From NCBI GenBank assembly GCA_027623615.1, contig JAQBVH010000033.1, positions 1 to 11,730 on the forward strand: 11,730 bases of DNA, read 5' to 3'. Source of the DNA: Planctomycetota bacterium. Its GTDB lineage: Bacteria > Planctomycetota > UBA1135 > GCA-002686595. Position 1 is the first letter of the stretch. Each line of letters starts with the position of its first letter. This document shows, piece by piece, positions 1 through 11,730 of the stretch. Made by a program: the position numbers and the translations under genes. The notes under the pieces were generated by a model, which had not been told where the DNA came from, ran no database searches, and saw only the letters and a program-made list of their open reading frames with translations.

Positions 1-1225
1 CGAGCTTGCGGCCGAGCTTGGTGGGTGCGCCGTCCTCGATCGCGCCGAGCTGACCCAGCAGGTGCGTCGCGCGCGACAGGGCCTCCGGTTTGGGCGGCTC
101 GAACCAGGCGAACTGGGCCGGGTCCCGCTCGCCGAAGCAGGCCAGCTCGAGCACCGGACCGGTCAGGTCGAGGCGGTGGATCGCCGGCACCTCGGCGAGC
201 GGCCGCGACTTCTGATCGTGGGCGCTCCAGAGGCGCACGCACACCCCCGGACCCTGGCGACCGGCGCGACCCGCCCGTTGATCCGAGGACGCGATCGAGA
301 TCGGGCCCAGCTCCAGCCGATCGAGCCCCGCGCCCGGGTCGTGGCGCATGACCCGGGCGAGCCCGACGTCCACCACCGCAGCGACCCCGTCGACCGTCAC
401 GGAGGACTCCGCCACGTTCGTCGCCAGGACGAGCTTGCGTCGCGCGCCCCGGCGCAGCACCGCGTCCTGCTTTTCGGGCGGCAGGTCGCCGTAGAGCTCG
501 TGCAGCTCGAGTGCGTGCTTGCGGGCCACGCCCGCGAGGGACTCCGCCGCGCGCCGGATCTCCCCGACCCCCGGCAGGAAGACGAGCACGTCGCCCTCCA
601 CCGCAGCGAGCGCCGCGCGCACGCCGCGCACGAGGTGATCGCGCGCGTCCTCGCCGCGCTCCTCCGGCACGTACTGCACGTCGACGGGGAACGCGCGACC
701 CTCGCCGCGCACGACCGGCGCGCCACCCAGCGCGCGCGCGACGGCGTCACCCTCCAGGGTCGCCGACATCACGATCAGCTTCAGGTCCTCGCGCGCCTCG
801 CGCTGCACCTGGCGCACGAGGGCCAGCGCGAGGTCCGCCTCGAGCGAGCGCTCGTGGAACTCGTCGAGCACGATCGTCCCGTAACCATCGAGGAAGGGGT
901 CGTCCTGCAGGAAGCGCAGCAGCACCCCCTCGGTCACCACGAGCAAGCGCGTCGCCTGCGAGCGCTTGCGATCGAAGCGCACCTGGTAGCCGACCTCGTC
1001 GCCAAGGGCCCCGCCGCGCTGGGTCGCGATCCAGCGCGCAGCTGCCCGCGCCGCGAGCCGGCGCGGTTCGAGCACGAGCACCGGACCCAGGCCTGCGTCG
1101 AGGAGCGCCGGCGGGACGCGGGTCGTCTTGCCCGAGCCGGTCGGCGCCTCGAGGACCAGGCACGGGTGGTTGGACAGACTGGCGAGCACCTGGGGCAGGA
1201 CCTCGTCGACGGGCAGCTCGCTCAC
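1..1225 (-). CDS. hrpB: ATP-dependent RNA helicase HrpB, N-terminal 408 residues (runs off the window)
   Basis: DEAH-box helicase of the bacterial HrpB family. The start is GTG at 1223-1225, overlapping the stop of the upstream DUF1499 gene as GTGA. No ATG fits, and the GTG places the family's opening LPVDEVLPQVL at residues 4-14. Motifs in order: Walker A GSGKTT (31-35 with the preceding Gly), LEPRRLAAR (52-60), VVTEGVLLRFL (96-106), the DEAH variant DEFHERSLEADLAL from residue 121, VMSATL, FLPGVGEIRRAAE, LATNVAESSVTVDG and QRAGRAGR from residue 316. The last visible residues, LLGQLGAIEDG...LGRKL, match the family just after the helicase core. The HrpB-specific C-terminal half, roughly as long again, lies outside. 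HrpB members are predicted RNA helicases and their cellular role is poorly defined in most bacteria. The reading frame is intact throughout. Its place as fourth gene of an ArsR-controlled unit is unusual. The identification is secure. Confidence 0.96.
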   Translation of the reverse strand, partial: MSELPVDEVLPQVLASLSNHPCLVLEAPTGSGKTTRVPPALLDAGLGPVLVLEPRRLAARAAARWIATQRGGALGDEVGYQVRFDRKRSQATRLLVVTEGVLLRFLQDDPFLDGYGTIVLDEFHERSLEADLALALVRQVQREAREDLKLIVMSATLEGDAVARALGGAPVVRGEGRAFPVDVQYVPEERGEDARDHLVRGVRAALAAVEGDVLVFLPGVGEIRRAAESLAGVARKHALELHELYGDLPPEKQDAVLRRGARRKLVLATNVAESSVTVDGVAAVVDVGLARVMRHDPGAGLDRLELGPISIASSDQRAGRAGRQGPGVCVRLWSAHDQKSRPLAEVPAIHRLDLTGPVLELACFGERDPAQFAWFEPPKPEALSRATHLLGQLGAIEDGAPTKLGRKL

Positions 1226-1665
1226 TGGTCCGCGAGCTCCGCGCGCAGGGCCTCGACGCGGCGCTGGTGGGCTTCCCGCGAGCCGCGTCCCACCCGCGCG
1301 GAGGAGCGCACGTGGACCTGGCGGCCCTGGCGGTCGAGCAGGACCTCGAGGTCGCTGCGCACGCCCATCCAGTTCGACGGCTGGAAGTGGACGTAGGTGT
1401 CGTCGGACACGAGCACCGTGTAGCGCTCGGACAGCAGGGCGACCAGCTTGGCGAAGGCCCCGTCCGGTTCGCCCCTCAGGGGCAGCGGCGCGACGTGACT
1501 CTCCCCCTCGTCCTGACTGCACACGCAGCCGCTGCGCTCGGCGCAGGGGCGCAGCCGTCCAGCCACGAGGCCCGAGGCCGGCGCCGTCCGCGAGGACAGC
1601 ACCAACCCGACGCAGGCCGCCGCCACGAGGAGGACGACGGCCAGGACCACGATTCGGGGACGCAT
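1222..1665 (-). CDS. DUF1499 family protein with N-terminal membrane segment
   Basis: 147 residues from the ATG at 1663-1665. A longer in-frame reading to 1791 is rejected because it adds Pro/Arg-rich low-complexity sequence and invades the ArsR gene. Residues 4-24 are strongly hydrophobic after MRPR, so the protein is either anchored or exported. A poor lipobox (VAAAC, Cys18) leaves a lipoprotein possible. The DUF1499 pattern is clear: CAERSGCVCSQ (41-51) matches the usual C-P-x-S-P-N-C-V-S-S, followed by HVAPLPL, then DDTYVHFQPSN (88-98), then VHVRSSARVG (117-126) and QRRVEALR near the end. The family's usual D-x-G-x-N before RRVE is replaced by GSREAHQ. The family has no established biochemical role. 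It lies 61 bp after the ArsR gene and overlaps the hrpB start by 4 bp, implying translational coupling. A perfect 16-bp palindrome sits 4 bp upstream of its ATG. Confidence 0.83.
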   Translation of the reverse strand: MRPRIVVLAVVLLVAAACVGLVLSSRTAPASGLVAGRLRPCAERSGCVCSQDEGESHVAPLPLRGEPDGAFAKLVALLSERYTVLVSDDTYVHFQPSNWMGVRSDLEVLLDRQGRQVHVRSSARVGRGSREAHQRRVEALRAELADQ

Positions 1666-1669
1666 GCCC

Positions 1670-1685
1670 CCAGGGTCCACCCTGG
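1670..1685. repeat. Perfect 16-bp palindrome before the DUF1499 gene
   Basis: CCAGGGT and ACCCTGG flank a 2-bp spacer, 4 bp upstream of the DUF1499 ATG and 41 bp after the ArsR stop. In the mRNA it could form a 6-bp stem with a 4-nt loop whose 3' arm abuts the G-rich stretch that would serve as ribosome binding site. It could be a second operator or a translational hairpin. No U-tract follows, so it is not a typical terminator. Confidence 0.45.
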
Positions 1686-1726
1686 CCCGGCAGGCGGCAA
1701 GGCTTGCATCAGGGCTCCGGCGAGCA

Positions 1727-2038
1727 TCAGGGCCTGGCCGGCGACCGCTCGAACCAGCCGAGCCAGCGCTCGACCACGGCGAGGCGCTCACGGTTCAGGC
1801 GGTAGATCCGTTCACGGCCCTGTTTCTCGACCGAGACGAGGCCCGACTCGACCAGCACCTTGAGGTGGCGCGAGGTTGTGGGCCACGAGCACTCGAAGCG
1901 CTCCGCGATCCGGCCCGCGGTCATCTCGCCCCCGCGAAAGTGCAACACGAGCAGCACGTGACGGCGTGTCTCGTGGCTGAGAGCGTCGAAGACGGCCTCG
2001 ACGTCCGCCAGATCCCGCGCCGCCCGGGAGAGGCTCAC
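1727..2038 (-). CDS. ArsR/SmtB-family winged helix-turn-helix repressor
   Basis: 103 residues, starting with GTG at 2036-2038, which overlaps the TGA of the preceding gene as GTGA. The whole chain is one winged HTH: ALSHETRRHVLLVL (19-32), the positioning helix MTAGRIAERF (39-48), the recognition helix SWPTTSRHLKVL (51-62), then SGLVSVEKQGRERIYRLN (65-82) as the beta-wing. This is the ArsR subgroup often found beside SRPBCC or ABM-type genes. The metal-binding ELCVCDL motif is absent and the only cysteine is Cys50, so classical arsenic or metal sensing is unlikely. The family generally represses its own operon by binding an AT-rich palindrome over the promoter, and such a palindrome lies at 2391-2416 in front of the first gene. 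The ligand or signal is unknown. Confidence 0.92.
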   Translation of the reverse strand: MSLSRAARDLADVEAVFDALSHETRRHVLLVLHFRGGEMTAGRIAERFECSWPTTSRHLKVLVESGLVSVEKQGRERIYRLNRERLAVVERWLGWFERSPARP

Positions 2039-2379
2039 ACCAGGCCCGGATAGCTGATCGTGACCGGCTCGACGTGCTGGAACTCGAACTTGGGCCGCGC
2101 CTCACGCTCCCCGCAGAGTTCCCCCATCGGCTCCCAGACGGCGAGCACGGCGGGTGACTGGTGGGCGATGTTCGGCGCGTCGGCGTCCCTCCACTCGAAC
2201 ACCTCGAAGAAGACGGTGCCGCCCGTGCCGTCGCTGCCGCGGTAGATCAGCGGCCCCATCTCGGTGGCGAGATCCGCGCCGCGCAGGGCGGGATAGTGCT
2301 GGGCGAGGATGCCCTCGAAGTCGGCTTCCTTGCCAGGGAGGACGCGGTAGGTGCAGAGGACGGTGACGGGTTGGCTCAT
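2035..2379 (-). CDS. Dimeric alpha/beta-barrel protein, antibiotic-biosynthesis-monooxygenase (ABM)-like
   Basis: 114 residues from the ATG at 2377-2379, the first gene of the minus-strand unit. The N-terminus VTVLCTYRVLPGKEADFEGIL (5-25) shows the beta-strand, 'PGKE' turn and first helix of ABM and related ferredoxin-like dimeric barrels. A central GTVFFEVFEWRDADAP (53-68) and HQSPAVLAVWEPM (73-85) give the second half of the fold. ABM-fold proteins include cofactor-free monooxygenases, heme-degrading enzymes and small-molecule binders. No catalytic assignment is possible here, because the heme-pocket or quinone-oxidation signatures are not visible. There is no signal peptide, so it is probably cytoplasmic. 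Coupling by GTGA to an ArsR repressor suggests an inducible detoxification or sensing module in which the ABM protein handles the inducer. That is inference. Fold assignment is moderately sure; function is not. Confidence 0.72.
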   Translation of the reverse strand: MSQPVTVLCTYRVLPGKEADFEGILAQHYPALRGADLATEMGPLIYRGSDGTGGTVFFEVFEWRDADAPNIAHQSPAVLAVWEPMGELCGEREARPKFEFQHVEPVTISYPGLV

Positions 2380-2388
2380 GGGGTGCTC

Positions 2389-2394
2389 ACTTTA
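2389..2394 (-). promoter_or_regulatory. Candidate -10 element of the ABM-arsR-DUF1499-hrpB unit
   Basis: Read on the minus strand the hexamer is TAAAGT, 9 nt before the ATG, and it overlaps the proximal arm of the palindrome. No convincing -35 is seen. A repressor on the palindrome would cover this box. The implied 5' leader would be very short. Confidence 0.35.
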
Positions 2395-2416
2395 GTTAGC
2401 TGTCATGCTAAATAAC
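2391..2416. promoter_or_regulatory. Imperfect AT-rich palindrome, probable ArsR operator
   Basis: Arms TTTAGTTAGC (2391-2400) and GCTAAATAAC (2407-2416) are inverted with a 6-bp spacer, and 8 of 10 positions pair. The inner TTAGC/GCTAA is perfect. It begins 11 bp upstream of the ABM gene ATG and is the most AT-rich stretch nearby. Length, symmetry and position fit an ArsR autoregulatory operator, with the ArsR gene second in the unit. Binding is inferred. Confidence 0.62.
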
Positions 2417-2562
2417 AACGGCGAGCCGCGCAAGGGCCCCTGGCGCGCGAGAATGGGACCACCGATGCGCCTCCTGGCCTCGCTGCGACGTGGTCGAGCC
2501 GGTGATCGGCCACGCTGAGGCGTCCGGCGCGCCTGGTGAGGTCGGTCTCCTGGGAGCACCGC

Positions 2563-2568
2563 TAGGAT
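2563..2568 (+). promoter_or_regulatory. Candidate -10 element (TAGGAT) before a small ORF
   Basis: TAGGAT lies exactly 7 nt upstream of the ATG at 2576, a spacing expected for a leaderless transcript. Similar TAGG(G/C)T boxes sit 6-7 nt before the two divergent genes near 7565/7607. No clear -35 is seen. Prediction only. Confidence 0.3.
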
Positions 2569-2575
2569 CGCCCTG

Positions 2576-2680
2576 ATGCAGACCCACTGGCTCGCCGTCG
2601 GCGGCGCGCTGAGCGGGAGGTGGTTCGAGTTCTTGCGCTGGGCTGCTCGGTGGCCGTACCGCGCCGACGATCCGAGCTGA
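2576..2680 (+). CDS. Possible 34-residue small protein, Trp-rich (speculative)
   Basis: ATG to TGA in an otherwise empty region. The peptide begins MQTHWLAVGGALSGRW and contains four tryptophans (residues 5, 16, 22, 26) plus several basic residues. A hydrophobic or amphipathic N-terminal half is followed by a charged tail ending ADDPS. A TAGGAT box sits 7 nt before the ATG, and a stem-loop follows 25 bp after the stop, so the three elements could form one tiny transcription unit. I do not recognise the sequence. Against it: an ORF of this size is expected by chance in GC-rich DNA, and there is no Shine-Dalgarno sequence. It could equally be leader RNA of the downstream gene. Confidence 0.22.
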   Translation: MQTHWLAVGGALSGRWFEFLRWAARWPYRADDPS

Positions 2681-2705
2681 CTCCAGCGTGTCCGGGAAGG
2701 GTCGG

Positions 2706-2729
2706 GGGCGCTCCCAGGCGCCCTACTTT
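2706..2729 (+). terminator. GC-rich stem-loop with weak T-rich tail
   Basis: GGGCGC (2706-2711) and GCGCCC (2718-2723) pair perfectly around the 6-nt loop TCCCAG and are followed by TACTTT. It resembles an intrinsic terminator, but the T-tract is short and interrupted. It lies between the small ORF and the second TAGGAT box, so it could insulate the coiled-coil gene or act in its leader. Confidence 0.35.
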
Positions 2730-2756
2730 GAGCGGGAATCGACCGTAGGCAATCGC

Positions 2757-2762
2757 TAGGAT
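2757..2762 (+). promoter_or_regulatory. Candidate -10 element for the coiled-coil gene
   Basis: TAGGAT within the second copy of CGCTAGGATC, 62 nt before the ATG at 2825. If used, it would give a leader of about 55 nt. A TTGAGC lies too far upstream (23-bp spacer) to be a good -35. The choice rests on the exact repetition of the 10-mer and is tentative. Confidence 0.28.
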
Positions 2763-2824
2763 CCAGTCCTCGGGTTGGCCTTTGGGGGGCCTCCCGTTCC
2801 GCGCCTTCCACCGCAATTTCAATC

Positions 2825-5593
2825 ATGGTCTACAACCTCGCGCTCATCCTCGGTGGCGCGCTCATCGGCGCCGTCATCTCGTGGCTGGTCGTCGTGCAGC
2901 GCGGCATCAACCAGCGCCGGGTCCAGCAAGCGCTCTGGGACCGCAAGTTCCGCCTGGCCGAGGCCGACCGCGAGGCCGCGGTCGCCGCGCTGAACCGCAA
3001 CAACATCGAGGTCAAGAAGATCCGCGGCACCTTCGAGGGGCAGGAGGAGCGCATCGAAGAGCTCGTGCTCGCCCTGGACAGCGCGCGGAAGACCCTCGAT
3101 CAAGGTGAGGGCGAGCTCGAAGCCCGCGCCCACGAGGTGCACGAGCTCGCGTCCACCACCCAGAAGCTGCGCGAGGAACTCGAGCACGCCCAGACCGAGT
3201 CGCGGCGCAAGACGATCGTGTTCCGCGAGCTGAGCGATGAGCGCGACCGGCTGAGCGAGCGCCTCGAGGAGTCGACCAAGGCGAACCGCGACTTCGCGGA
3301 GCGCGTCGCGCGTGACGCCGAGCGGCTGCACGACTGGGAGGAGAAGCACGCCTCCCTGACCGAGAGCAAGGTGACCCTGGTCGAGGGTCTCGAGGAACGC
3401 ATCCGCACCCTCGAGCCCTTCCCCGAGCGACTCGAGGCCGCCAACGCCCGGGTCCAGGAGTGGGAGCGTCGCTACCTCGAGGCCGAGCAGGAGACCCGCG
3501 AGGAGCTCGAAGGGTTGCGCAGCCGCGTCGCCGACCTCGAGCCGGTCCCCGAGCGGCTCGCGCTGCGTGAGCTCGAGCTCGCCACCGCTCTGGAGCGTGC
3601 AGGTCAGGCCGAAGCGCGTGTGAAGGAGCTGACGCCGCTGAGCGCGCGGCTCGAGGAGCGCGAGCTCGAGCTCACCCAGCTCGCCGACGAGCTGGCCCAG
3701 CTGCGCGAGACCACCGAGGCGACGATCAACGACCTCGAGGCCCGCGTCGAGGAGCTGTCGCCCTTCCCCGATCGCCTGCAGACCCGCGAGGAGCAGCTGC
3801 GGGTCGCGACCGAGCGCCACGAGGAGCTCCTGACCTCCTCCCAGGAGGAGATCGTGGGACTCAAGGCGCGCATCGACGAGCTGTCCCCCTACCCGGCGCT
3901 GCTCGCCGAGCGTGAGGAAGAGCTGCGCACGGCGAGGGTGCACCTCGAGGAGCTCGAGCGTACGAGCGAGGCCGAGGTCGAATCCCTGCGCGCACGTCTC
4001 GAGGAGCTGCACCCCGTCCAGGAGGAGCTCGGGCAACGCAAGCAGGAGCTGCGCAAGAGCACCGCGCGCTACGAGCAGGATCTGGCCGCGGCTCGGGCCG
4101 AGGTGACGACCCTGCGCGAGCGCGTGAACGACCTCGAGCCCATGCCGGCCCAGCTCGCCAAGCGCGAGACCGAGCTGCGCGCCGCCGTGGAGCGCCACGA
4201 CCGCCTGGCCGAGGACACCGATCGGGAGCTCAGCGCCCTGCGCGCCAAGGTCGAGAAGCTCGAGCCGAAGCAGCTCAGCCTGGCCGAACGCGATGGCGAG
4301 CTGCGGGTGCTCGAGAAGCGCCACGGCGAGCTGCAGGTGCAGTCGGACAGCCGCATCCGCGAGCTGACCGATCGCCTCATGAAGCTCGAGCCCATGCCGG
4401 AGAAGCTTTCCGAGCGCGAGCGTCAACTCGAGGAGACCCGCGCCGAGCACAAGGACTACGTCGCCAAGAAGAGCAAGGAGCTGGCCACCCTGCTGGACCA
4501 GGTCTCCAAGCTCGCCGCCCTGCCGAACCGGATCGGGGAGGCGGAGCTCCAGTTGGCCAAGACCGAGGGCAAGCTGCAGAAGGTCGACCGCGAGAAGCGC
4601 GAGGAGATCGAACAGCTGCGGTCGGTCGTGCAGACCCTCGAGCCCCTACCTGCTCAGCTCGAGGAGCGCGAGCAAGAGGTCAGCGACTGGCGCACCCGCT
4701 TCGGCAGCCTCGAGGAGAAGACCGAGCGTGACCGGGACAAGCTCGAGAAGCGCATCGTCGAGCTGGAGGAGAGGTCCAGGGACCTGGCGAGCGCGCGCAA
4801 GCAGCTCTCGACCCTGACCCGCCAGGTCGCACGCGGCAAGAAGGAGGTCGACTCGCGCGAGGTGCGCATCGAGGTCCTTGGCGGCCGCATCGAGGCTCAG
4901 AAGGGCGAGCTGGCCGATCTCAAGCGCCAGGTCCTGGGCATGGGCGCCGACCACCGCAGCCAGCAGCAACGCATCAACAGCCTCGAACAGGAACGCAAGG
5001 AGCTGCTGACCCAGCTGCAGGCCTCCGAGGTGCGCCTCCAGGACGCGACGAACACCAAGCGCCTGGTCGAGAAGGACCTGCGCGGCAAGGAGCGCGAGGT
5101 CGCCAAACTCGAGCGAGCGCTCACGAAGGACGCGGCCGCGAAGTCGCCGGCCGCTCCTGCCAAGACGGCTGCCACGGCCAAGGCCGCACAGGCCGAGGTC
5201 GCCGCCGCGAAGGCCTCGCCGAAGACGCCCGCTGCGAAGCAGCCGGCTACCAAGGCTCCGGCCCCGCCCAAGGCTCCGGCCAAGGAGCCCGCCGCCAAGA
5301 AGGCTCCGGCCAAGAAAGCTCCGGCCAGGAAGCCCGCCGCCAAGCCGGCTCCGGCCAAGAAGGCGCCGGCCAAGAAGCCCGCCGCAAAGGGCAGGGAGAA
5401 GCTCCGCGTGGTCGAGCTCGCGCCGCAGCCGCGTGGGGGCGTGAGCGCTTCGGAAGCAGCCAAGAGAAGGGCCGCGGCGAAGAAGGCGCCGGCCAAGAAG
5501 GCTCCGGCGGCAAAGAAGGTCGCCAAGAAGGCACCTGCCAGGACGAAGACGACCGCGAAGAAGAGGGTGCGCACGAAGGCAGGCTCCCGCTGA
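2825..5593 (+). CDS. Membrane-anchored coiled-coil rod of 42-residue repeats with histone-H1-like tail
   Basis: 922 residues in four parts. (a) Residues 4-24 form one membrane helix. The RGINQRR that follows predicts a cytoplasmic C-terminal body by the positive-inside rule. (b) Residues 30-195 are a highly charged helical neck, ending in a degenerate repeat (154-195). (c) Residues 196-646 hold eleven tandem units, ten of exactly 42 residues and one of 31 (238-268). Most open L-x-P-x-P, with conserved Leu at positions 1, 8, 15 and 36. Helix continues to about 766. (d) Residues 767-922 are Ala/Lys/Pro-rich (repeated APAKK), split by a non-repetitive stretch at about 856-882. No catalytic domain is visible. 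Such tails occur in H1-like and AlgP-like proteins and often bind DNA. A tether between membrane and nucleoid, or another polyanion, is inferred. The start gives a clean membrane helix but has no good Shine-Dalgarno. The methyltransferase gene follows by 13 bp. Confidence 0.88.
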   Translation: MVYNLALILGGALIGAVISWLVVVQRGINQRRVQQALWDRKFRLAEADREAAVAALNRNNIEVKKIRGTFEGQEERIEELVLALDSARKTLDQGEGELEARAHEVHELASTTQKLREELEHAQTESRRKTIVFRELSDERDRLSERLEESTKANRDFAERVARDAERLHDWEEKHASLTESKVTLVEGLEERIRTLEPFPERLEAANARVQEWERRYLEAEQETREELEGLRSRVADLEPVPERLALRELELATALERAGQAEARVKELTPLSARLEERELELTQLADELAQLRETTEATINDLEARVEELSPFPDRLQTREEQLRVATERHEELLTSSQEEIVGLKARIDELSPYPALLAEREEELRTARVHLEELERTSEAEVESLRARLEELHPVQEELGQRKQELRKSTARYEQDLAAARAEVTTLRERVNDLEPMPAQLAKRETELRAAVERHDRLAEDTDRELSALRAKVEKLEPKQLSLAERDGELRVLEKRHGELQVQSDSRIRELTDRLMKLEPMPEKLSERERQLEETRAEHKDYVAKKSKELATLLDQVSKLAALPNRIGEAELQLAKTEGKLQKVDREKREEIEQLRSVVQTLEPLPAQLEEREQEVSDWRTRFGSLEEKTERDRDKLEKRIVELEERSRDLASARKQLSTLTRQVARGKKEVDSREVRIEVLGGRIEAQKGELADLKRQVLGMGADHRSQQQRINSLEQERKELLTQLQASEVRLQDATNTKRLVEKDLRGKEREVAKLERALTKDAAAKSPAAPAKTAATAKAAQAEVAAAKASPKTPAAKQPATKAPAPPKAPAKEPAAKKAPAKKAPARKPAAKPAPAKKAPAKKPAAKGREKLRVVELAPQPRGGVSASEAAKRRAAAKKAPAKKAPAAKKVAKKAPARTKTTAKKRVRTKAGSR
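3410..4762 (+). repeat. Eleven tandem protein repeat units, 42 residues (126 bp) each, one of 31
   Basis: Units begin at residues 196, 238, 269, 311, 353, 395, 437, 479, 521, 563 and 605 of the coiled-coil protein. Typical openings are LEPFPERL, LEPVPERL, LSPFPDRL, LSPYPALL, LEPMPAQL, LEPMPEKL and LEPLPAQL. Later positions favour R-E-x-E-L at 11-15, E-R-H near 20-22 and L-R-A-R-V-E-E near 36-42. At DNA level the units are diverged, so the repeat is ancient or under selection at protein level rather than a recent duplication. Unit 10 has lost both hinge prolines except the one at position 5 (LAALP), and units 6 and 8 keep only the first. Confidence 0.9.
5123..5590 (+). repeat. Low-complexity Ala/Lys/Pro-coding tail
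   Basis: Degenerate short repeats of GCTCCGGCCAAGAAG-type sequence encode APAKK and KPAAK motifs at the 3' end of the coiled-coil gene. They form two blocks separated by an exception at about 5390-5470 (peptide REKLRVVELAPQPRGG). Near-identical units such as those at 5266-5390 could expand or contract by slippage, so tail length may differ between strains. Confidence 0.75.
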
Positions 5594-5606
5594 CTCGCTG
5601 AAAACG

Positions 5607-6218
5607 ATGGGGTTCTACGGCGATCACGTCCTTCCGCGCGGGATCGCCTGGGGTATGCAGGGCCGGGCCTTCCGCGAGCAGCGGGGTCCGGCCCTCACTC
5701 TCGCCCGGGGTCGCGTGCTCGAGCTCGGGTTCGGGGCGGGGCACAACCTCGAGCACTACCCGGCAGCGGTCGAGGAGGTGCTCGCCCTCGAGCCGGCGAC
5801 CGTGAACCGCAAGCTGGCCGCGAAGCGCGTGGCCGCCGCGCGCATGCCGGTGCGCTGGGTCGGCCTGGAGGGCGAGTCCGTTCCCCTGGAGGACGACACG
5901 GTCGACACGGTCGTCTCCACCTGGACCCTGTGCACGATCCCCGGCCTTGGCCAAGCCCTGGCGGAGGTGCGCCGGGTCCTGCGACCGGGGGGCGAACTGC
6001 TCTTCCTCGAGCACGGCCTCAGCCCCGACCCCAAGGTCGCGCGCTGGCAGAATCGGCTCAACCCGCTGCAACGCCGGCTCTGCGGCGGCTGCCACTTGAA
6101 CCGGCGCATCGACGCCGAACTCGAGGCCGCCGGCTTCGATCTCAGGGCCCTCGAGACCTTCGCGATGAAGGGCCCGCGCATCGCCACGTGGATGTATCGG
6201 GGACGAGCGACGCAGTAG
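5607..6218 (+). CDS. Class I SAM-dependent methyltransferase, METTL7/UbiE-like
   Basis: 203 residues. Motif I is VLELGFGAGHN (37-47), followed by LEP (61-63) as the acidic end of strand 2, then GESVPLEDDTVDTVVSTWTLC (89-109) as the motif II and strand 4 region, and VRRVLRPGGELLFLEHG (121-137). The FLEHG strand, the WQNRLNPLQRRLCGGCHLNR stretch (147-166) and the late ELEAAGF (171-177) match the methyltransferase-11 branch that includes the METTL7 thiol methyltransferases. The full length fits and no membrane anchor is present. The acceptor substrate is unknown. It lies 13 bp after the coiled-coil gene, so it is probably read from the same transcript. No strong ribosome binding site is seen before its ATG. 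Its stop is 9 bp from the stop of the convergent hydrolase gene. Confidence 0.88.
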   Translation: MGFYGDHVLPRGIAWGMQGRAFREQRGPALTLARGRVLELGFGAGHNLEHYPAAVEEVLALEPATVNRKLAAKRVAAARMPVRWVGLEGESVPLEDDTVDTVVSTWTLCTIPGLGQALAEVRRVLRPGGELLFLEHGLSPDPKVARWQNRLNPLQRRLCGGCHLNRRIDAELEAAGFDLRALETFAMKGPRIATWMYRGRATQ

Positions 6219-6227
6219 GTGCCAGGG

Positions 6228-7565
6228 CTACTTGCCGTAGCTCGGGACGGGCACCTCACCGTCGGTCGCGATCACGACGTCGATTGCCGCGTGGAAGATG
6301 CGGCCGCGATCGTCGTACTCGCGCACGAGCTCGAGCAGGAAGCGCGGGTCGGGGTCGAACCTGGCCTCGAAAACCTTCTCGCCGTTGGCGACCACGCTGA
6401 CGGGCTTGGCGAAATCGACCATGCGCGGATGCAGGTGCAGGCGCAGCGCGCGGACTCCCGCCGTGGTCAACTCGATGCGGTTGTCGCCGGCGTTGACGGC
6501 CCACACGCGCTGGTCGACGGCCTCCTCGCCCTGCGGTGTCTCGAGCGGCGTCAGACGCACCCAGTGGCTCGTCTCACGGGTGATCGCCCGATCGGGGTGC
6601 CAGGTGTGCTGCTCGTCCCAGTCGTCGCGGGTCGGCGCCGCGTCCCAGCGCAGGCTGCCGCGACCCCAGGCGAAGACCCGCTGCGGATACGGATCGCGCG
6701 GGTGCTCGTCGAGGAAGCTGGCCGCCTTCGGTAGCTCGTCCGCGAAGATCTGGTGACCACCCGGCTTCTCCACGTTGACCCAGGGGAACGCGCGCTCGGC
6801 CCTCCCGTCCCGGCTGCGACGGTTGAACTCGGCGATCTGGTACGGCTCACGCACGCCCCAGGTCGCGTAGCCCGGGACGTTGAAGAGCAGCTCGGCCTGG
6901 CGGTTCTCGACGTAGTCGTAGCCGCCGCTCATCGGCGACACCGCGCCGAAGCGATCGCCGAGGGAGATCCCCGTGCGCCAGGACAGGTGCCCCCCCATCG
7001 AGTGCCCGGTCATGAACACCCGATCCGGGTCGATGTTGTAGTGCCGCTGCACCTTCGAGATCGCGCTCAGGACCAACGAGTTGCCGATCGCGCCCCAACC
7101 CCGGCGCGTGAACGGCGCGACCAGGATCCAACCGCGCTGCTCGACCTCGGCGATCCAGGGCCGCACCCCCCCGTGCGACGCCCGGCGCGCGTAGTCGAGG
7201 CTCATCGCGCTGTTGCCCCCGTGGCCGACCACGAGCAGCGAGGTCGGGACGTCCGGGTCGAGGCGCTTCGAGACGTAGAGGAAGCCCGCGGTCGTGTAGT
7301 CCACGTGGTCGCAGGCGAGCGCGATCTCGGTCAGCGCTCCAGCCTCGACCAGCGGCTCGAACGCCCCGCTCCGGCCGGCACGCAGACGACGTTCGAGCTC
7401 CTCGACGCCGAGCGCGGCCAGCGCGTCGGGGACGGGAGTACCCTGCTCGAAACGCGCATCCAGCCAGGCGTCGAGGGCGAGGCCGACGGGGTCGGGTGCC
7501 TGGGCCTCCTGGGCCAGGAGGACGGGCGAGCAGAGCACGGTCAGGACGAGCGAGGCGTGACGCAT
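6228..7565 (-). CDS. Secreted alpha/beta hydrolase (prolyl-oligopeptidase/PHB-depolymerase-like esterase)
   Basis: 445 residues from the ATG at 7563-7565. Residues 1-18 form a short signal peptide (hydrophobic LVLTVLCSPVLLA, cleavage near AQ), so export is predicted. The hydrolase core shows LLVVGHGGN (110-118) as the oxyanion strand and turn, RGWILVAPFTRRG (144-156), YNIDPDRVFMTGHSMGG (176-192) with nucleophile Ser189, and GGHQIF (269-274) with candidate catalytic His271. The acid residue is not assigned with confidence. Residues about 330-445 form a beta-rich tail with VWAVNAGDNRIELTT and FAKPVSVVANGEKVF, a C-terminal module often seen behind such hydrolases in Planctomycetota. Substrate is unknown; an ester or peptide bond is likely. 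It is divergent from the sulfatase, and the two may act together on extracellular polymers (inference). TAGGGT lies 6 nt before the ATG. Confidence 0.85.
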   Translation of the reverse strand: MRHASLVLTVLCSPVLLAQEAQAPDPVGLALDAWLDARFEQGTPVPDALAALGVEELERRLRAGRSGAFEPLVEAGALTEIALACDHVDYTTAGFLYVSKRLDPDVPTSLLVVGHGGNSAMSLDYARRASHGGVRPWIAEVEQRGWILVAPFTRRGWGAIGNSLVLSAISKVQRHYNIDPDRVFMTGHSMGGHLSWRTGISLGDRFGAVSPMSGGYDYVENRQAELLFNVPGYATWGVREPYQIAEFNRRSRDGRAERAFPWVNVEKPGGHQIFADELPKAASFLDEHPRDPYPQRVFAWGRGSLRWDAAPTRDDWDEQHTWHPDRAITRETSHWVRLTPLETPQGEEAVDQRVWAVNAGDNRIELTTAGVRALRLHLHPRMVDFAKPVSVVANGEKVFEARFDPDPRFLLELVREYDDRGRIFHAAIDVVIATDGEVPVPSYGK

Positions 7566-7571
7566 GGCCTC

Positions 7572-7599
7572 ACCCTACACGCCCGACCGGCGTTAGGCT
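7572..7599. promoter_or_regulatory. Near-symmetric divergent promoter region
   Basis: The minus-strand box TAGGGT (plus 7572-7577) is 6 nt from the hydrolase ATG, and the plus-strand box TAGGCT (7594-7599) is 7 nt from the sulfatase ATG. They are separated by 16 bp, so each box sits where the -35 of the other promoter would be. Both fit the TAnnnT pattern of -10 elements, at spacings expected for leaderless mRNAs, and neither gene has a Shine-Dalgarno sequence. The promoter assignment is inferred. Confidence 0.42.
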
Positions 7600-7606
7600 G
7601 ACCAGC

Positions 7607-8968
7607 ATGATCCTCCGCGCCGCGCTCTCCCTGGCCGTCTGCCTCAGCGCTCCTCTCGCCGCCAACGATCGCGCGCCTAGCCTGGTGCTGATCGTGGCCG
7701 ACGACCTCGGCTACGGCGACCTCGGCTGCTACGGCCAGCAGGTCATCCAGACTCCTCACATCGACCAGCTCGCGGCGGAGGGCCTGCGCCTGACGCACTT
7801 CTACGCGGGCTCGACCGTGTGCGCTCCATCCCGGTGCGTGCTGATGACCGGGCTCGACACCGGCAAGTGCCTGATCCGGGGCAACGGCAAGACGAACCTG
7901 CGCCCCGAGGACGCGACGATGGCCAAGGTGCTGCAGGGCGCGGGCTACCAGACCGGCTGCTTCGGCAAGTGGGGCCTGGGCCACGAGGGGTCGACGGGCT
8001 TGCCCACCCGGCAGGGCTTCGACGCCTTCTTCGGGTACCTCGACCAGCACCACGCCCACAACTACTACCCAACCTTCCTCATCGACGGCGAGGAGCGCCA
8101 CGCGCTGCCCAACGTCGTTCCCACGGAGGGCCAGTACGGCCAGGGCAAGGCCTCCGAGAAGATCGAGTACGCCGCGGACACGATCCACGACCGCGCGCTG
8201 ACCTGGATGCGCGGGCTGGATCCGGGACGACCGTTCTTCCTCTTCTATCCTTCGACCCTCCCCCACGCGAACAACGAGGCCGGGCGCGAGGGCATGGAGG
8301 TTCCGAGCTACGGTCCGTACGTCGACGAGGACTGGCCCGAGCCGCAGAAGGGTCACGCGGCGATGATCTCGCACCTCGATCGCCAGGTCGGCGAGCTCGT
8401 CGCGCTGCTCGAGGAGCTGGACCGCGCTCGCGACACGCTCGTGATCTTCACCTCGGACAACGGCCCCCACCGCGAGGGCGGCAACGACCCCGACTTCCAC
8501 GACTCGAACGGACCCCTGCGCGGCATCAAGCGCGCGTTGACCGACGGCGGCATCCGCGTGCCGACGGTCGTGCGCTGGCCGGGGGTGACCCGGCGCGGCT
8601 CGTCCTGCGACCACGCCCTGGGCTTCGTCGACCTGCTCGCGACCGCGGCCGACCTGTGTGCTGCTTCCGCAGCGGCCCCGACCGACGGTGTCAGCCTGCT
8701 CCCATCCCTGCGCGGCGGCGCCGCCCCGCAGCGGGACGCGCTGTACTGGGAGTTCTACGAGGGTGACAGCGCGCAGGCCGTGCGCTTCGGCGCCTACAAG
8801 GCCATCCGCGCGCCGCTCTTCCATGGCCCGATCGAGCTCTACGACGTGGTTGCCGATCCGGGCGAGGAGACGAACCTCGCGCAGCGCCGTCCCGATCTGG
8901 TGCGGCGCGCCGAGGGGTTGCTGGCGGCAGGCCACACGCCCTCCGAGCTCTGGAAACGTCGACGTTGA
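7607..8968 (+). CDS. Secreted sulfatase, arylsulfatase family (Cys-type formylglycine)
   Basis: 453 residues from the ATG at 7607, chosen because it opens a signal peptide (ILRAALSLAVCLSAPLAA, 2-19). An in-frame start at 7496 would lie inside the divergent hydrolase gene. Visible active-site parts: metal ligands ADD (31-33); the sulfatase signature CAPSRCVLMTG (72-82), where Cys72 would be oxidised to formylglycine and Arg76 supports it; Lys121 in GKWGLG; H220 in STLPH; FTSDNG (281-286); and Lys308 with GGIRVP (314-319). GFDAFFGYLDQHHAHNYYP (137-155, 19 residues) marks the subfamily in which GKWHLG becomes GKWGLG. The full length is present and the C-terminal subdomain includes LYDVVADPGEETNLA. 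It hydrolyses sulfate esters outside the cytoplasm, probably of a polysaccharide. The exact substrate is not readable. A formylglycine-generating or anaerobic maturation enzyme must be encoded elsewhere. A terminator follows. Confidence 0.94.
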   Translation: MILRAALSLAVCLSAPLAANDRAPSLVLIVADDLGYGDLGCYGQQVIQTPHIDQLAAEGLRLTHFYAGSTVCAPSRCVLMTGLDTGKCLIRGNGKTNLRPEDATMAKVLQGAGYQTGCFGKWGLGHEGSTGLPTRQGFDAFFGYLDQHHAHNYYPTFLIDGEERHALPNVVPTEGQYGQGKASEKIEYAADTIHDRALTWMRGLDPGRPFFLFYPSTLPHANNEAGREGMEVPSYGPYVDEDWPEPQKGHAAMISHLDRQVGELVALLEELDRARDTLVIFTSDNGPHREGGNDPDFHDSNGPLRGIKRALTDGGIRVPTVVRWPGVTRRGSSCDHALGFVDLLATAADLCAASAAAPTDGVSLLPSLRGGAAPQRDALYWEFYEGDSAQAVRFGAYKAIRAPLFHGPIELYDVVADPGEETNLAQRRPDLVRRAEGLLAAGHTPSELWKRRR

Positions 8969-8980
8969 GGCTCTCTCCTT

Positions 8981-9005
8981 GGGAATTCTTACGAATCCCT
9001 TTTTT
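8981..9005 (+). terminator. Intrinsic terminator of the sulfatase gene
   Basis: GGGAATTC (8981-8988) pairs with GAATCCC (8993-8999) across the loop TTAC, with one bulged A, and is followed directly by six T (9000-9005). It lies 12 bp after the sulfatase stop and is the clearest terminator in the window. It separates the sulfatase from the flagellin unit. Confidence 0.8.
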
Positions 9006-9067
9006 GTTGACGCCCAGCAGCCGCCCGCTCCGAAGGGGGTCTTGAACGGTACGTTTCCCCACCCCCA

Positions 9068-9086
9068 CGAGGCCGCCCCAGCCTCG
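9068..9086 (+). other. Stem-loop in the flagellin 5' leader
   Basis: CGAGGC (9068-9073) and GCCTCG (9081-9086) pair perfectly around the loop CGCCCCA, about 60 bp upstream of the flagellin start. No T-tract follows. It may stabilise the mRNA or tune translation; no known element is recognised. Confidence 0.35.
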
Positions 9087-9098
9087 GGAAGCTCACCA

Positions 9099-9152
9099 AT
9101 GAGTCCCCCGTCCCACGCGGACGCCGTCCCCTCCCCTGGAGGCGCTCGGTGA
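9099..9152 (+). CDS. Possible 17-residue leader peptide overlapping the flagellin start
   Basis: ATG at 9099 to TGA at 9150-9152, encoding MSPPSHADAVPSPGGAR. Its stop overlaps the flagellin GTG as GTGA, the same junction form seen twice in the minus-strand unit, so it could couple translation. A weak GGGAAG lies upstream of its ATG. The peptide is Pro/Ala-rich with no recognisable feature, and chance occurrence is quite possible. Confidence 0.2.
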   Translation: MSPPSHADAVPSPGGAR

Positions 9153-9961
9153 GCCTGCGCATCCACAACAACCTGGCGGCCATGGCCGCCCAGACCAACC
9201 TGTTTCAGGCGACCCAACGCGTCGAGCGCGGTCACCTGAAGCTGGCCACCGGTCTGCGCATCGCAGGAGCGGCCGACGACGCGGCCGGCCTGGGCGTCGT
9301 GGAGAGGATGCGCGTGCGCGCGCGGTCGATGCAGGTGGCGGCGCGCAACATGCAGGACGGGATCAGCCTGGTGCAGGTGTTCGAGGGCGCGCTCGGCGAG
9401 CCGCAGGAGCTGATCCACCAGCAGCGAGAGCTCGCCGTGCAGGCGGGGAGCGGGACCTTGGGCGAAGACGAGCTCGAGCTGCTCGACGACGTCAAGCAGA
9501 CCAACGCCGAGGAGATCGGGCGCCTCATTCGCCAGACGGAGTACGGCGGCCGTAGCCTGCTCCGGGACAACGGTACGGTCGACATCCAGATGGGCCTGGA
9601 CGACGGGGAGACGCTCGCGATCGACCTCGAGAACTTCAGCGCCTGGCAGTCGGCCTTCGAGAACGCGCACCTGTTCAACGCCGCGGGGCGTGACTGGATC
9701 ATGCGCCTCTCGGATCTGTTCACAGGGCTGATCGGCACGGCGCGCGCGAAGACCGGCACGGCGCAAACCGTGCTCGAGGGCGCCCAGCGCCAGATCCTCG
9801 ATCAGCGCACCCATGTCCAGAACGCGGAGTCGCGGCTGCGCGACGTGGACATGGCCGAGGAGACGTCCAATCTCACCCGCAATCAGATCGTGCAGTCGGC
9901 GGCCACGGCCGTGCTGGCCCAGGCGAACCTGAACCCCGAGCTGGCGCTGATGCTGATCTGA
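9149..9961 (+). CDS. Short flagellin (D0/D1 domains only)
   Basis: 270 residues starting with GTG at 9149, supported by TGGAGG at 9138-9143 with 5-6 nt spacing. The N-terminal flagellin domain spans about 3-140: IHNNLAAMAAQTNL, LATGLRIAGAADDAAGLGVVERM (first 20 at 32-51), AARNMQDGISLVQVFEGALGE (64-84) and RELAVQAGSGT (93-103) then RQTEYGGRSLL (128-138). The C-terminal domain runs from about 190 to 270 with ESRLRDVDMAEETSNLTRNQ (227-246) and ends LAQANLNPELALMLI, close to the usual flagellin end. Only about 50 residues link the halves, so the variable surface domains D2/D3 are missing and a thin, smooth filament is expected. The conserved Lys in the SAKDDAAG motif is Ala here. Flagellins are exported by the flagellar type III apparatus without a cleaved signal. 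No other flagellar gene lies in the window. It is probably the filament subunit, but a minor second flagellin cannot be excluded. Confidence 0.94.
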   Translation: MSLRIHNNLAAMAAQTNLFQATQRVERGHLKLATGLRIAGAADDAAGLGVVERMRVRARSMQVAARNMQDGISLVQVFEGALGEPQELIHQQRELAVQAGSGTLGEDELELLDDVKQTNAEEIGRLIRQTEYGGRSLLRDNGTVDIQMGLDDGETLAIDLENFSAWQSAFENAHLFNAAGRDWIMRLSDLFTGLIGTARAKTGTAQTVLEGAQRQILDQRTHVQNAESRLRDVDMAEETSNLTRNQIVQSAATAVLAQANLNPELALMLI

Positions 9962-9994
9962 ACCGGGGCCGAGGCGCTCCGTTTCGATGGCAGC

Positions 9995-11038
9995 ATGCTC
10001 CACGCCGTCCCCCTGCTCCTCCTGGGCCTCACCTGGCCTGGATCCGAGGCACCTGCCGCGACGGCGAGCTGCCTCGCGGCGCTGTCCTGGGAGGACTCCT
10101 GGCTGGCCAGGCACCAGAACGAGGACGGCAGCTGGGACGCGGACGGGTTCCAACGCCACTCCCGCGAGGACGACCCGCCCGCGACACCGGGCCAGGCGGA
10201 CGCGGACCTACGCGTCACATCCCTGGTCGTCCTGCAGCTGCTCCAGAACAGCGACCTGACCAGCGGACCGAACCGGCGCGCCCTCAAGCGGTCGCTCGAC
10301 TGGTTCCTGTCCCTGCGCGAGGACGCGCTCGACCTCGGCAGCCAGGGGCCGCGCAGCATTCGCGACCACGCCCTCGCGACCCTGGCGCTGACCGAGATGC
10401 TCTCGCTCAGCGAGAACGAGGAGCTGCGCAGCGTGGCCGGGGAGTGGGTCATGGCGCTCGAATTCGCGCGCCATGGAAACGGCGGCTGGGGCGCCGGACC
10501 CGACCTCCCGGCGGACTCCCTGACGACAGGTTGGGCCCTGATCGCCCTGCGCAAGGCGCAGCTCACGCAGCTGCCGGTCTCGCACCGTGCGGCGCGCGAC
10601 GGATGGGGCTTCCAGCGCTCGTGCTTCGACCTCGAGTCGGGCCTGGTCGCGGCCACGCCCGAGGCCGCACCCGGGCGGCTCGCGGCGACAGGACTCACGC
10701 TCGCGGCGGCGAACCTGCGTGAGGGCGACGCGCCGCTCGACCCGTGGCTGCGTCGCGCGCAGGCGGCGCTGCACGCGCGCGGCCTCGAGGGTGTGACGGT
10801 CGATGGCGCGACCGACTGGGAGAGCGTCTTCAGCGTTGGCCTGGCGGCGTACATCACCGGTGGCCGCTGGTGGAAGGCCTGGATGGACGAGACGAAGGCC
10901 ATGTTCCACGACCTGCTCGAGGCGCAGGGACAGGCGCCGGTGAGCGAGCACGAACCCGGCGGCAGCCTGGGCAGTCGAGCCTGGTCGGCCATGGGCGTGA
11001 TGCTCTACTACCGCTACGGGCGGCTGATCTTCCGCTAG
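9995..11038 (+). CDS. Secreted squalene-cyclase/prenyltransferase-fold repeat protein, probably non-catalytic
   Basis: 347 residues from the ATG at 9995, 33 bp after the flagellin stop. The hydrophobic start MLHAVPLLLLGLTW followed by SEAPAATAS suggests a signal peptide cleaved near residue 24. The mature chain looks like an alpha/alpha toroid of the terpenoid cyclase superfamily. Visible elements are WLARHQNEDGSWD (36-48), a QW-type motif; DLRVTSLVVLQLLQ (71-84); RDHALATLALTEML (123-136); HGNGGWGAGPD (160-170), then TTGWALIALRKAQL (177-190); and a late DWESVFSVGLAAYI. The squalene-hopene cyclase DxDD acid motif in its proper context is absent, and length is about half that of true cyclases. 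Planctomycetota encode many exported proteins with this repeat, of unknown function. Binding of hydrophobic or polymer ligands is only a guess. It may share the flagellin transcript, as no terminator separates them. Confidence 0.75.
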   Translation: MLHAVPLLLLGLTWPGSEAPAATASCLAALSWEDSWLARHQNEDGSWDADGFQRHSREDDPPATPGQADADLRVTSLVVLQLLQNSDLTSGPNRRALKRSLDWFLSLREDALDLGSQGPRSIRDHALATLALTEMLSLSENEELRSVAGEWVMALEFARHGNGGWGAGPDLPADSLTTGWALIALRKAQLTQLPVSHRAARDGWGFQRSCFDLESGLVAATPEAAPGRLAATGLTLAAANLREGDAPLDPWLRRAQAALHARGLEGVTVDGATDWESVFSVGLAAYITGGRWWKAWMDETKAMFHDLLEAQGQAPVSEHEPGGSLGSRAWSAMGVMLYYRYGRLIFR

Positions 11039-11048
11039 AAGAGCCGAG

Positions 11049-11067
11049 GCAGGACTACTCGTCCTGC
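11049..11067. terminator. Stem-loop between convergent genes
   Basis: GCAGGAC (11049-11055) and GTCCTGC (11061-11067) pair perfectly around TACTC. It straddles the 16-bp gap and the last codons of the minus-strand gene. Only a C/T-mixed tract follows on the plus strand, so it would be a weak, possibly bidirectional, terminator or 3'-end stabiliser. Confidence 0.4.
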
Positions 11068-11730
11068 TGCTTCTCGTCCTTGACCCGCTGCTTGATCACG
11101 TCGCGGTGCGCCATGGGGTCGGCGATCATCGCGCGGTGATCCTCCTGGAGGGTCTTCCACCACTCCGCGGCGCCGAGGACGCGCTCGATGCGTTCTCTTA
11201 CCGAGAGCTCCGCGGCCATGATCTCCTCGAAGGTCTTGGCCTGCAGCCCCTCGCGCACCTGGGGCCGCAGCAGGAAGCGCAGCTTGCAGAGGGTGCCGAA
11301 GACGGCCCGCTCGGTGTCGAGCGAGACGAAGACGCTCTCCATCAGGTCGTGAAAGTCGCGGTTCTTGCGCTCGTAGCCGAACTCCTGCTCGAGCCGCCCG
11401 GCCCAGTACCTGGAGAGCTCCTTGAGCCCGCGGGCCTGGTCCTTGTCCGGCTCGCGCCCGATCCATGCCGCGAGGCGAAACTCGACGTCCGCGCTGCCCG
11501 CTCCGACCATCACGCTGTGGTCGGAGGTGACCTCGGTGACCTTGTAGGCGCCCTTGTCCCGGGAGTTCCACCCAGGCCCCTCGAAGCCGAGCAGCTCGCT
11601 CGGCCAGTCGGGTACGTCCATCCCGAAGCTCTCGAGGGGCCCGTACTGCACGTTGCGCTCGTCGCTGTGGGAGAGCCCCAGGTCCTCGAGCAGGAGCTCG
11701 ATGAGCAGCGCCTTGTAGCGCCGCTCGACC
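11055..11730 (-). CDS. Unrecognised protein, C-terminal 225 residues (start outside window)
   Basis: The frame is open from the window edge to TAG at 11055-11057, so this is the 3' part of a longer gene. A GTG at 11651 is internal and not a likely start, because in-frame coding sequence (ERRYKALLIELLLEDLGLSH) continues upstream of it. The visible part opens with an amphipathic helix, then a short Pro/Gly region (GPLESFGMDVPDWPSELLGF) and a beta-like stretch AYKVTEVTSDHSVMVGAG. The rest is mainly charged helix with YWAGRLEQEFGYERKNRDFH and EWWKTLQEDHRAMIADPMAH, ending in a very polar tail (VKDEKQQDE). No signal peptide or membrane segment is visible in this part, and I do not recognise a family. 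A cytoplasmic protein is likely. It is convergent with the secreted repeat-protein gene, 16 bp away. Confidence 0.8.
   Translation of the reverse strand, partial: VERRYKALLIELLLEDLGLSHSDERNVQYGPLESFGMDVPDWPSELLGFEGPGWNSRDKGAYKVTEVTSDHSVMVGAGSADVEFRLAAWIGREPDKDQARGLKELSRYWAGRLEQEFGYERKNRDFHDLMESVFVSLDTERAVFGTLCKLRFLLRPQVREGLQAKTFEEIMAAELSVRERIERVLGAAEWWKTLQEDHRAMIADPMAHRDVIKQRVKDEKQQDE

Follow-up and report, generated by a model that had tools for sequence, protein, structure and literature searches.

The 11,730-nucleotide stretch analysed here, hereafter the window, comes from a Planctomycetota bacterium (GCA_027623615.1, contig JAQBVH010000033.1, positions 1-11,730 of the forward strand) and carries a gene that we call the rod gene, whose 922-residue product is the basis of all residue numbers used below. 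This rod protein is laid out as an N-terminal hydrophobic stretch followed by basic residues, a rod spanning approximately residues 28-758 in which prolines are confined to hinges, and a basic tail (Table 1). Here we report that the rod contains a real array of 42-residue units opened by proline hinges, and we describe how this array varies among relatives and what the protein may do.

A proline-hinged array of 42-residue units

The array occupies residues 196-646 (window 3410-4762) and comprises ten units of 42 residues and one of 31 (residues 238-268), with hinges starting at residues 196, 238, 269, 311, 353, 395, 437, 479, 521, 563 and 605 and residue 647 closing the last unit. A sequence-only reading that preceded this work had described ten units of exactly 42 residues over this interval and made no mention of the 31-residue one. 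Every unit opens with L-x-P-x-P-x-x-L or a one-proline form of it. Leucine occurs at positions 1, 8, 15 and 36 in ten, nine, eight and ten of the ten 42-residue units, respectively, and proline at positions 3 and 5 in nine and seven, bearing out the earlier description of leucine as fixed and proline as usual at these positions; judged from unit phase, all 18 prolines within residues 1-774 stand at unit position 3 or 5. At a lag of 42 residues self-identity was 0.235, whereas shuffles that preserved the heptads gave 0.137 ± 0.012 (z 8.5); echoes appeared at lags of 84 and 126. In a second run, the value at the protein's best lag was equalled in 0 of 100 shuffles. The units were rightly called diverged, as two units share on average 30% of residues (15% at other offsets of the heptad phase) and 49% of bases.

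Two AlphaFold models place the interruptions of the helix at the hinges, in agreement with the evenly jointed helical segments proposed from sequence. The model of residues 166-685, built with two sequences (predicted local distance difference test score, pLDDT, 74; predicted template modelling score, pTM, 0.23), breaks at nine of the eleven hinges and is otherwise unbroken across the array, and the full-length model, built with five sequences (pLDDT 67, pTM 0.26), breaks at eight of the eleven. The two models agree in breaking the helix at all seven double-proline hinges and in keeping it intact at the single-proline hinges of residues 269 and 395; the tail is modelled without structure.

Table 1. 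Features of the rod gene and its product, in window coordinates
Feature	Position	Strand	Basis
Rod gene, 922 residues	2825..5593	+	Open reading frame listing and homologues
N-terminal transmembrane helix (predicted), approximately residues 5-24, then basic residues	2837..2896	+	By eye from sequence
Membrane-adjacent family signature, residues 31-71 (RRVQQALWDRKFRLAEADREAAVAALNRNN...)	2915..3037	+	Alignment of members
Rod N-terminal arm, residues 72-195, proline-free	3038..3409	+	Proline map and model
Unit 1, 42 residues, double-proline hinge, breaks in both models	3410..3535	+	Unit alignment and AlphaFold
Unit 2, 31 residues (42 minus 11), double-proline hinge, breaks in both models	3536..3628	+	Unit alignment and AlphaFold
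Unit 3, 42 residues, single-proline hinge, helical in both models	3629..3754	+	Unit alignment and AlphaFold
Unit 4, 42 residues, double-proline hinge, breaks in both models	3755..3880	+	Unit alignment and AlphaFold
Unit 5, 42 residues, double-proline hinge, breaks in both models	3881..4006	+	Unit alignment and AlphaFold
Unit 6, 42 residues, single-proline hinge, helical in both models	4007..4132	+	Unit alignment and AlphaFold
Unit 7, 42 residues, double-proline hinge, breaks in both models	4133..4258	+	Unit alignment and AlphaFold
Unit 8, 42 residues, single-proline hinge, breaks in one of two models	4259..4384	+	Unit alignment and AlphaFold
Unit 9, 42 residues, double-proline hinge, breaks in both models	4385..4510	+	Unit alignment and AlphaFold
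Unit 10, 42 residues, proline only at position 5 (LAALP), breaks in both models; non-helical through residue 583 in the second	4511..4636	+	Unit alignment and AlphaFold
Unit 11, 42 residues, double-proline hinge, breaks in both models	4637..4762	+	Unit alignment and AlphaFold
Rod C-terminal arm, approximately residues 647-758, proline-free	4763..5098	+	Hinge map
Lysine/alanine/proline-rich histone-H1-like tail, residues 759-922; low-confidence and helix-free from 771 in model	5099..5590	+	Library matches and model

By the positive-inside rule, the basic residues that follow the hydrophobic stretch would place the rod in the cytoplasm. The distance from the last hinge to the tail is 151 residues, and it lies between 147 and 176 in most uncut members of the group of genera, defined below, to which the window belongs. 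No second copy of the rod gene was detected in the window genome at E ≤ 0.001, window 2300-5700 yielded neither promoter-like nor terminator-like sites, and no tRNA was found in the window. A 543-residue open frame on the opposite strand (window 2819-4450) mirrors the rod gene; we regard it as a consequence of high G+C content rather than a gene.

Anatomy of the unit

A unit profile was compiled from 158 units of 42 residues in 27 family sequences, these being all but six of 164 units, the six having been dropped for unknown residues; P0001, P0002, L071, L073 and L076, which are near-copies or cut by contig ends, did not contribute. Large hydrophobic residues occupy positions 1, 4, 8, 15, 33, 36 and 40 in 79-100% of units and positions 18, 22 and 25 in 53-68%, while position 11 is mostly arginine or threonine and position 29 mostly serine or threonine. 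The commonest surface residues are glutamate at position 32 (101/158) and arginine at position 39 (97/158), and none of the surface positions in the 158 units is near-invariant; nor does their composition contain a glycine- or asparagine-rich mid-unit loop. The six heptads of the sequence-only reading are approximate, since the hydrophobic pattern reads as heptads plus one hendecad: the unit appears to consist of three heptads, then a hendecad (positions 22-32), then a further heptad and three residues. The coiled-coil register would accordingly shift within each unit and be reset at the hinge. The 31-residue unit, at 42 minus 11, is one hendecad shorter.

Relatives and their distribution

One relative, from a Planctomycetota metagenome assembly (L002), is 70% identical in its best segment and repeats the 42, 31, 42 ... 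pattern with all 18 prolines, and each of the ten 42-residue window units finds its best match in its positional counterpart. In an alignment of 15 members, from which a membrane-end profile was built, a hydrophobic N-terminus accompanies a related membrane-end segment, with E46 as the sole invariant column. The features that define the family, all present in the window protein, are a predicted N-terminal membrane helix, an RRVQQELWDRK..RLAE-type signature and L-x-P-x-P-x-x-L hinges. The profile matches 40 of 81 genomes, and 20 of 42 genera, of the GTDB family of the window. The full-length protein searches, which yielded few relatives, were limited to the 7,995 and 7,994 candidates with most words in common, and more relatives may therefore exist.

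A search of 294 genomes across the phylum, 11 of them in the window's family, matched five family members and three unrelated proteins. The latter (L093-L095), by eye two phosphatases and one histidine kinase, were dropped, as were L032 and L092, also judged unrelated by eye. No signature-bearing relative was found in the approximately 283 phylum genomes outside the family, which were searched less deeply; this absence is less certain because 17 candidates were scored per genome, compared with up to 64 in the family search. Residues 1-80 used as a query returned nothing at E ≤ 0.001, although P0001, a hit of the first full-length search, matches the profile of that region at 9e-32 when 12 proteins are scanned; we place no weight on this discrepant result.

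Inspection by eye of a 572-residue metagenome protein (P0005) shows a membrane helix at the N-terminus, a rod in which L-x-P hinges occur five times (residues 131, 190, 246, 305 and 374) and an HHH-type (helix-hairpin-helix) end. It resembles the window protein in its helix and hinged rod, but its hinges are 56-69 residues apart and it does not match the membrane-end signature. It is a possible cousin in another lineage, and since it has the architecture without the signature, the architecture may reach past the family as defined here. Of the ten proteins of the second protein search, P0006-P0012 contain neither the signature (by profile) nor an array (by eye).

Array length varies by whole units

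Among 40 family loci (P0001-P0003 and L092-L095 set aside), the interval between hinges is exactly 42 residues in 173 of 271 cases, a share depressed by intervals that lie in the tail (157 in L002; 165 and 19 in L022; 184 in L078; probably 11 and 7 in L087). A larger set of 42 sequences (P0001 and L092-L095 set aside) gave 176 of 282, the next commonest intervals being 24 (17), 38 (12), 49 (10), 75 and 71 (7 each), 84 (6) and 31 (5); those of 84 are probably two units with a worn hinge. Six of the 20 genera hold a sequence with at least three intervals of 42, and together with genus g13 (two intervals of 42 and six of 49) they form one seven-genus group with support of 95/98 in a midpoint-rooted tree of about 105 membrane-end residues, which carries a long-branch warning (L024 among the branches concerned). 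The tree leaves out L071, L073, L076, L084, L085, L092-L095 and P0001-P0003.

Within this group, uncut copies have from 7 to 20 hinges and 679-1342 residues. Three genomes of a single genus (g10) have 14, 16 and 20 hinges in 1034, 1125 and 1342 residues, and the two members of the window's own genus have 922 and 930 residues. The longest rod (L070:1249-5274; 20 hinges, 1342 residues) contains units up to 82% identical in DNA, and copies of a 71-residue unit in L072 are 76% identical in DNA, high identities from which some unit copies look recent. In L020:1456-4431, with six 49-residue intervals, the most alike pairs share 67-69% of residues and 74% of bases, which reads as a unit length changed by one heptad and then copied. 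Within the group the array evolves in length by gain and loss of whole units, partly through recent duplication.

Other units are old: eight matching ones (336 residues), with 45-51% identity across genera g1, g22 and g2, align without net insertion or deletion, and sliding the window protein by one unit against L022 or L024 lowers identity to 30%. Individual hinges keep their type: the hinge with proline at position 5 only (LAALP, LVALP, LAILP) takes the penultimate place in the arrays of g1, g22 and g2, and in g10 the array of L019 closes with a similar hinge, LSILP.

Regularity is not uniform. Best lags other than 42 occur inside the group (71 in L077, 49 in L020 and 14 in L080), and proteins outside it have one to six irregularly spaced hinges, with a best lag of 42 in L086 (z 4.5), z 4.0 at 42 in L021 and L031, and other periods of 40/80 in L023 and 49 in L031. 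Counted by hand, with three short tail intervals set aside, non-42 rod spacings up to 60 are 0, 3 or 4 modulo 7, a result that is partly built in because hinge detection leans on core leucines. Similarly, 394 of 407 prolines counted lie at hinges, a partly circular figure, as a hinge is defined by a proline after a leucine. The earlier expectation of a conserved 42-residue length with a variable number of units therefore applies within the seven-genus group, and not outside it or to some units inside. Irregular spacing, which the sequence-only reading had named alongside loss of the prolines as evidence against itself, does occur outside the group and partly inside, but the proline hinge persists.

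The C-terminal end

Tails were surveyed in 34 of the 40 loci, five loci cut by contig ends and the tail-less L025 being left out. The HHH_5 domain was matched at E ≤ 0.01 in 23 of these 34 uncut C-termini, and in the window's genus and several others a basic lysine/alanine tail takes its place. Lysine and arginine make up 29% of the last 170 residues of the window protein, and aspartate and glutamate 5%; the last 110 residues match the histone-H1-like HC2 family at 7.5e-5, below the Pfam cut-off (0.099 for the whole protein). Both types of end suggest nucleic-acid binding.

Neighbouring genes

Gene neighbourhoods were surveyed in 40 loci with flanks of differing length, some ending at contig ends. 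The hrpB gene lies near the rod gene in 19 of them, all in six genera of the seven-genus group and including the window, and a DUF4388 protein is encoded nearby in six. A methyltransferase gene (window 5607-6218) begins 13 bases past the rod stop codon, an order found in the window and L002 only (L002 3106-3711, 68% identity). Further along the window (9149-9961) lies a gene for a short flagellin of 270 residues (Flagellin_N, Flagellin_C), flanked by a sulfatase and a 347-residue protein without a Pfam match.

A MamK-like protein, matching the actin-like ATPases 5ljw and 5jyg (which we take to be MamK structures) at 3e-78 and 6e-78, is widespread in the window's family, where 75 of the 81 genomes give a strong match and four more only weak or fragmentary ones. 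That of the window genome is encoded on a different contig, C41 (match 4328-5380; L100:4322-5383). A homologue of the weak-GGDEF coil protein described below was detected next to the MamK-like actin in seven of ten loci looked at, the window genome included, and many family genomes have a second actin-family match at 25-30% identity.

Comparison with known systems

Neither Pfam nor NCBIfam contains a family that reaches its cut-off on the window protein, and nothing in the PDB matches over the rod, the only matches being two ribosomal L19 chains (E 0.002-0.01) at residues 710-850; the earlier remark that the unit belongs to no named family stands. SMC/Rad50 and chromosome-segregation names were rejected as falling below cut-off (TIGR02168 was best, with 79 bits against 567). 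SMC/Rad50 proteins share a long coiled coil with a functional end, but have terminal ATPase halves where the window protein has a predicted membrane helix and a lysine/alanine/proline tail, and we take the similarity to reflect coiled-coil composition.

EzrA, HubP/FimV and TipN are membrane-anchored bacterial coiled-coil scaffolds, which resemble the predicted layout of the rod protein in having a single membrane helix and an extended cytoplasmic portion, and the number of HubP-type repeats also varies. The units of EzrA form helix bundles and the repeats of HubP are acidic; as described, and compared here through libraries only, these scaffolds differ from the rod protein in that its far end is DNA-binding-like. 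Histone-H1-like tails (HC2, PF07382; NF038053) share the basic lysine/alanine/proline-rich composition, with matches below curated cut-offs. AlgP and PhaF have such tails, and PhaF couples another structure to the chromosome through its tail. P0001 matches PDB chains 9wqv_a and 8yy9_O over a lysine/alanine-rich stretch followed by an HHH-type region. These chains with HHH_5 (PF14520) ends are named as membrane-complex subunits and are short (229 and 239 residues), and the window protein lacks the domain. Apolipoprotein-type helices are also delimited by prolines at a fixed length, but their repeats are 22-residue lipid-binding segments, not a coiled-coil rod. The coiled-coil proteins associated with MamK in magnetotactic bacteria work with a MamK-type actin, but in strain RS-1 a membrane helix is reportedly predicted for none of the coiled-coil proteins of the magnetosome (PMC12748827), unlike the rod protein. 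No title or abstract opening listed by our literature searches describes a proline-hinged 42-residue bacterial coiled coil. The parts are of familiar kinds, but we have seen no description of coiled-coil units that combine proline joints and a kept length with a varying number.

A proposed jointed tether and its alternatives

We favour the reading that the rod protein is a membrane-anchored, jointed, length-adjustable coiled-coil tether running from the inner membrane to nucleic acid, at a probability of roughly 0.48. The N-terminal helix would anchor the protein to the inner membrane, and the rod would lie in the cytoplasm as a coiled coil, probably a parallel dimer, that the prolines would divide into 42-residue helical segments of about 6 nm each. 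At the coiled-coil rise of 0.1485 nm per residue, a straight rod would measure about 108 nm in total, of which the eleven units would account for about 67 nm. Double prolines are predicted by the models to act as joints and single prolines as weaker kinks, and such joints may allow a very long helix to bend, bringing the nucleoid within its reach even where the membrane is curved or crowded. The basic tail, or the HHH domain in most relatives, would bind DNA or RNA without sequence preference, as the type of domain suggests. Gain or loss of whole units could let reach differ among species, and unit length probably stays near 42 mostly through whole-unit copying and the survival of only those changes that keep register.

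Several observations weigh against this tether. Neither member of the window's genus (the window and L002) has a detected HHH domain, and the H1-like match of the window tail may be due to chance because lysine/alanine/proline tails are low-complexity. Both AlphaFold models are monomers whose low pTM makes their overall arrangement untrustworthy; in the full-length model, moreover, the break at hinge 563 leaves residues 565-583 non-helical (pLDDT about 57-59) as far as the middle of unit 10, and a further break falls at 671-680, outside the array. The rod gene went undetected in 41 of the 81 genomes of the window's family, many of them incomplete, and its function need not be a core one. In five loci from five genera (L021, L023, L026, L028 and L029), finally, the rod gene is divergent from a pair encoding a coil protein and the MamK-like actin, a linkage that a pure nucleoid tether would not predict.

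Because of this adjacency to a MamK-like actin operon in another lineage, the main rival is a cytoskeletal adaptor that links the membrane to MamK-like filaments or organises something along them, with joints that serve for docking or flexing and a basic end that makes a secondary contact. The five linked loci, in three of which the coil protein has a weak GGDEF match, branch next to the window's group (92/85, midpoint root), and the window genome is among those with a strong MamK-like match. However, the linkage was found neither in the window nor in the other fetched loci of its group, nor in L025 from the same branch as the linked loci; the MamK-like actin also occurs in genomes without a detected rod gene; and the adaptor leaves the DNA-binding-type end unexplained. 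We consider the adaptor rather unlikely. A chain of spectrin-like hairpins, one per unit, had also been raised by the sequence-only reading; the regular prolines could mark turns, and the non-helical first half of unit 10 in one model could be read that way. It is nevertheless very improbable, as no helix break starts within a unit in either model (monomers of low pTM), the units lack a glycine- or asparagine-rich loop in their middle, and the sole Pfam spectrin match, at 15.5 bits against a cut-off of 35, falls outside the array.

The modal spacing of 42 and the lack of net insertions or deletions over 336 residues in three genera would also suit a molecular ruler, in which the exact step measures distance or spaces binding sites, and the recurrent glutamate 32 and arginine 39 could form a periodic surface site. 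Yet total length differs by hundreds of residues within g10 alone, spacings of 24, 31, 38, 49, 71 and 75 recur in relatives and no surface position is near-invariant, so that a ruler of fixed length is disfavoured and the ruler in general, which the sequence-only reading had raised, appears quite improbable. Regularity might also be without a function of its own, the rod being a coiled-coil spacer grown by tandem duplication and the hinge a tolerated relic copied along with it: recent duplications are seen, and spacings of 0, 3 or 4 modulo 7 are what register constraint alone would give, albeit by a partly built-in measure. We hold this to be improbable, given that prolines are kept at 45-51% identity, that hinges keep their own type across g1, g2 and g22, and that hinges persist in lineages without regular units. 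As for the wider proposition that these proteins form a new class of jointed arm, with 6-nm segments, individually conserved joints (free at double prolines, kinked at single ones) and a reach set by segment number, coupling membrane, nucleoid and MamK-like actin in one planctomycete family, we judge it unlikely.

As a membrane-nucleic acid tether, the rod family would be a concrete candidate for the link between membranes and nucleoids in planctomycetes, present in some genomes and not in their close kin. Its natural series of rod lengths in 42-residue steps would let dependence on reach, on joint number or on neither be told apart, and the family may serve as a natural blueprint for coiled coils whose joints are programmed.

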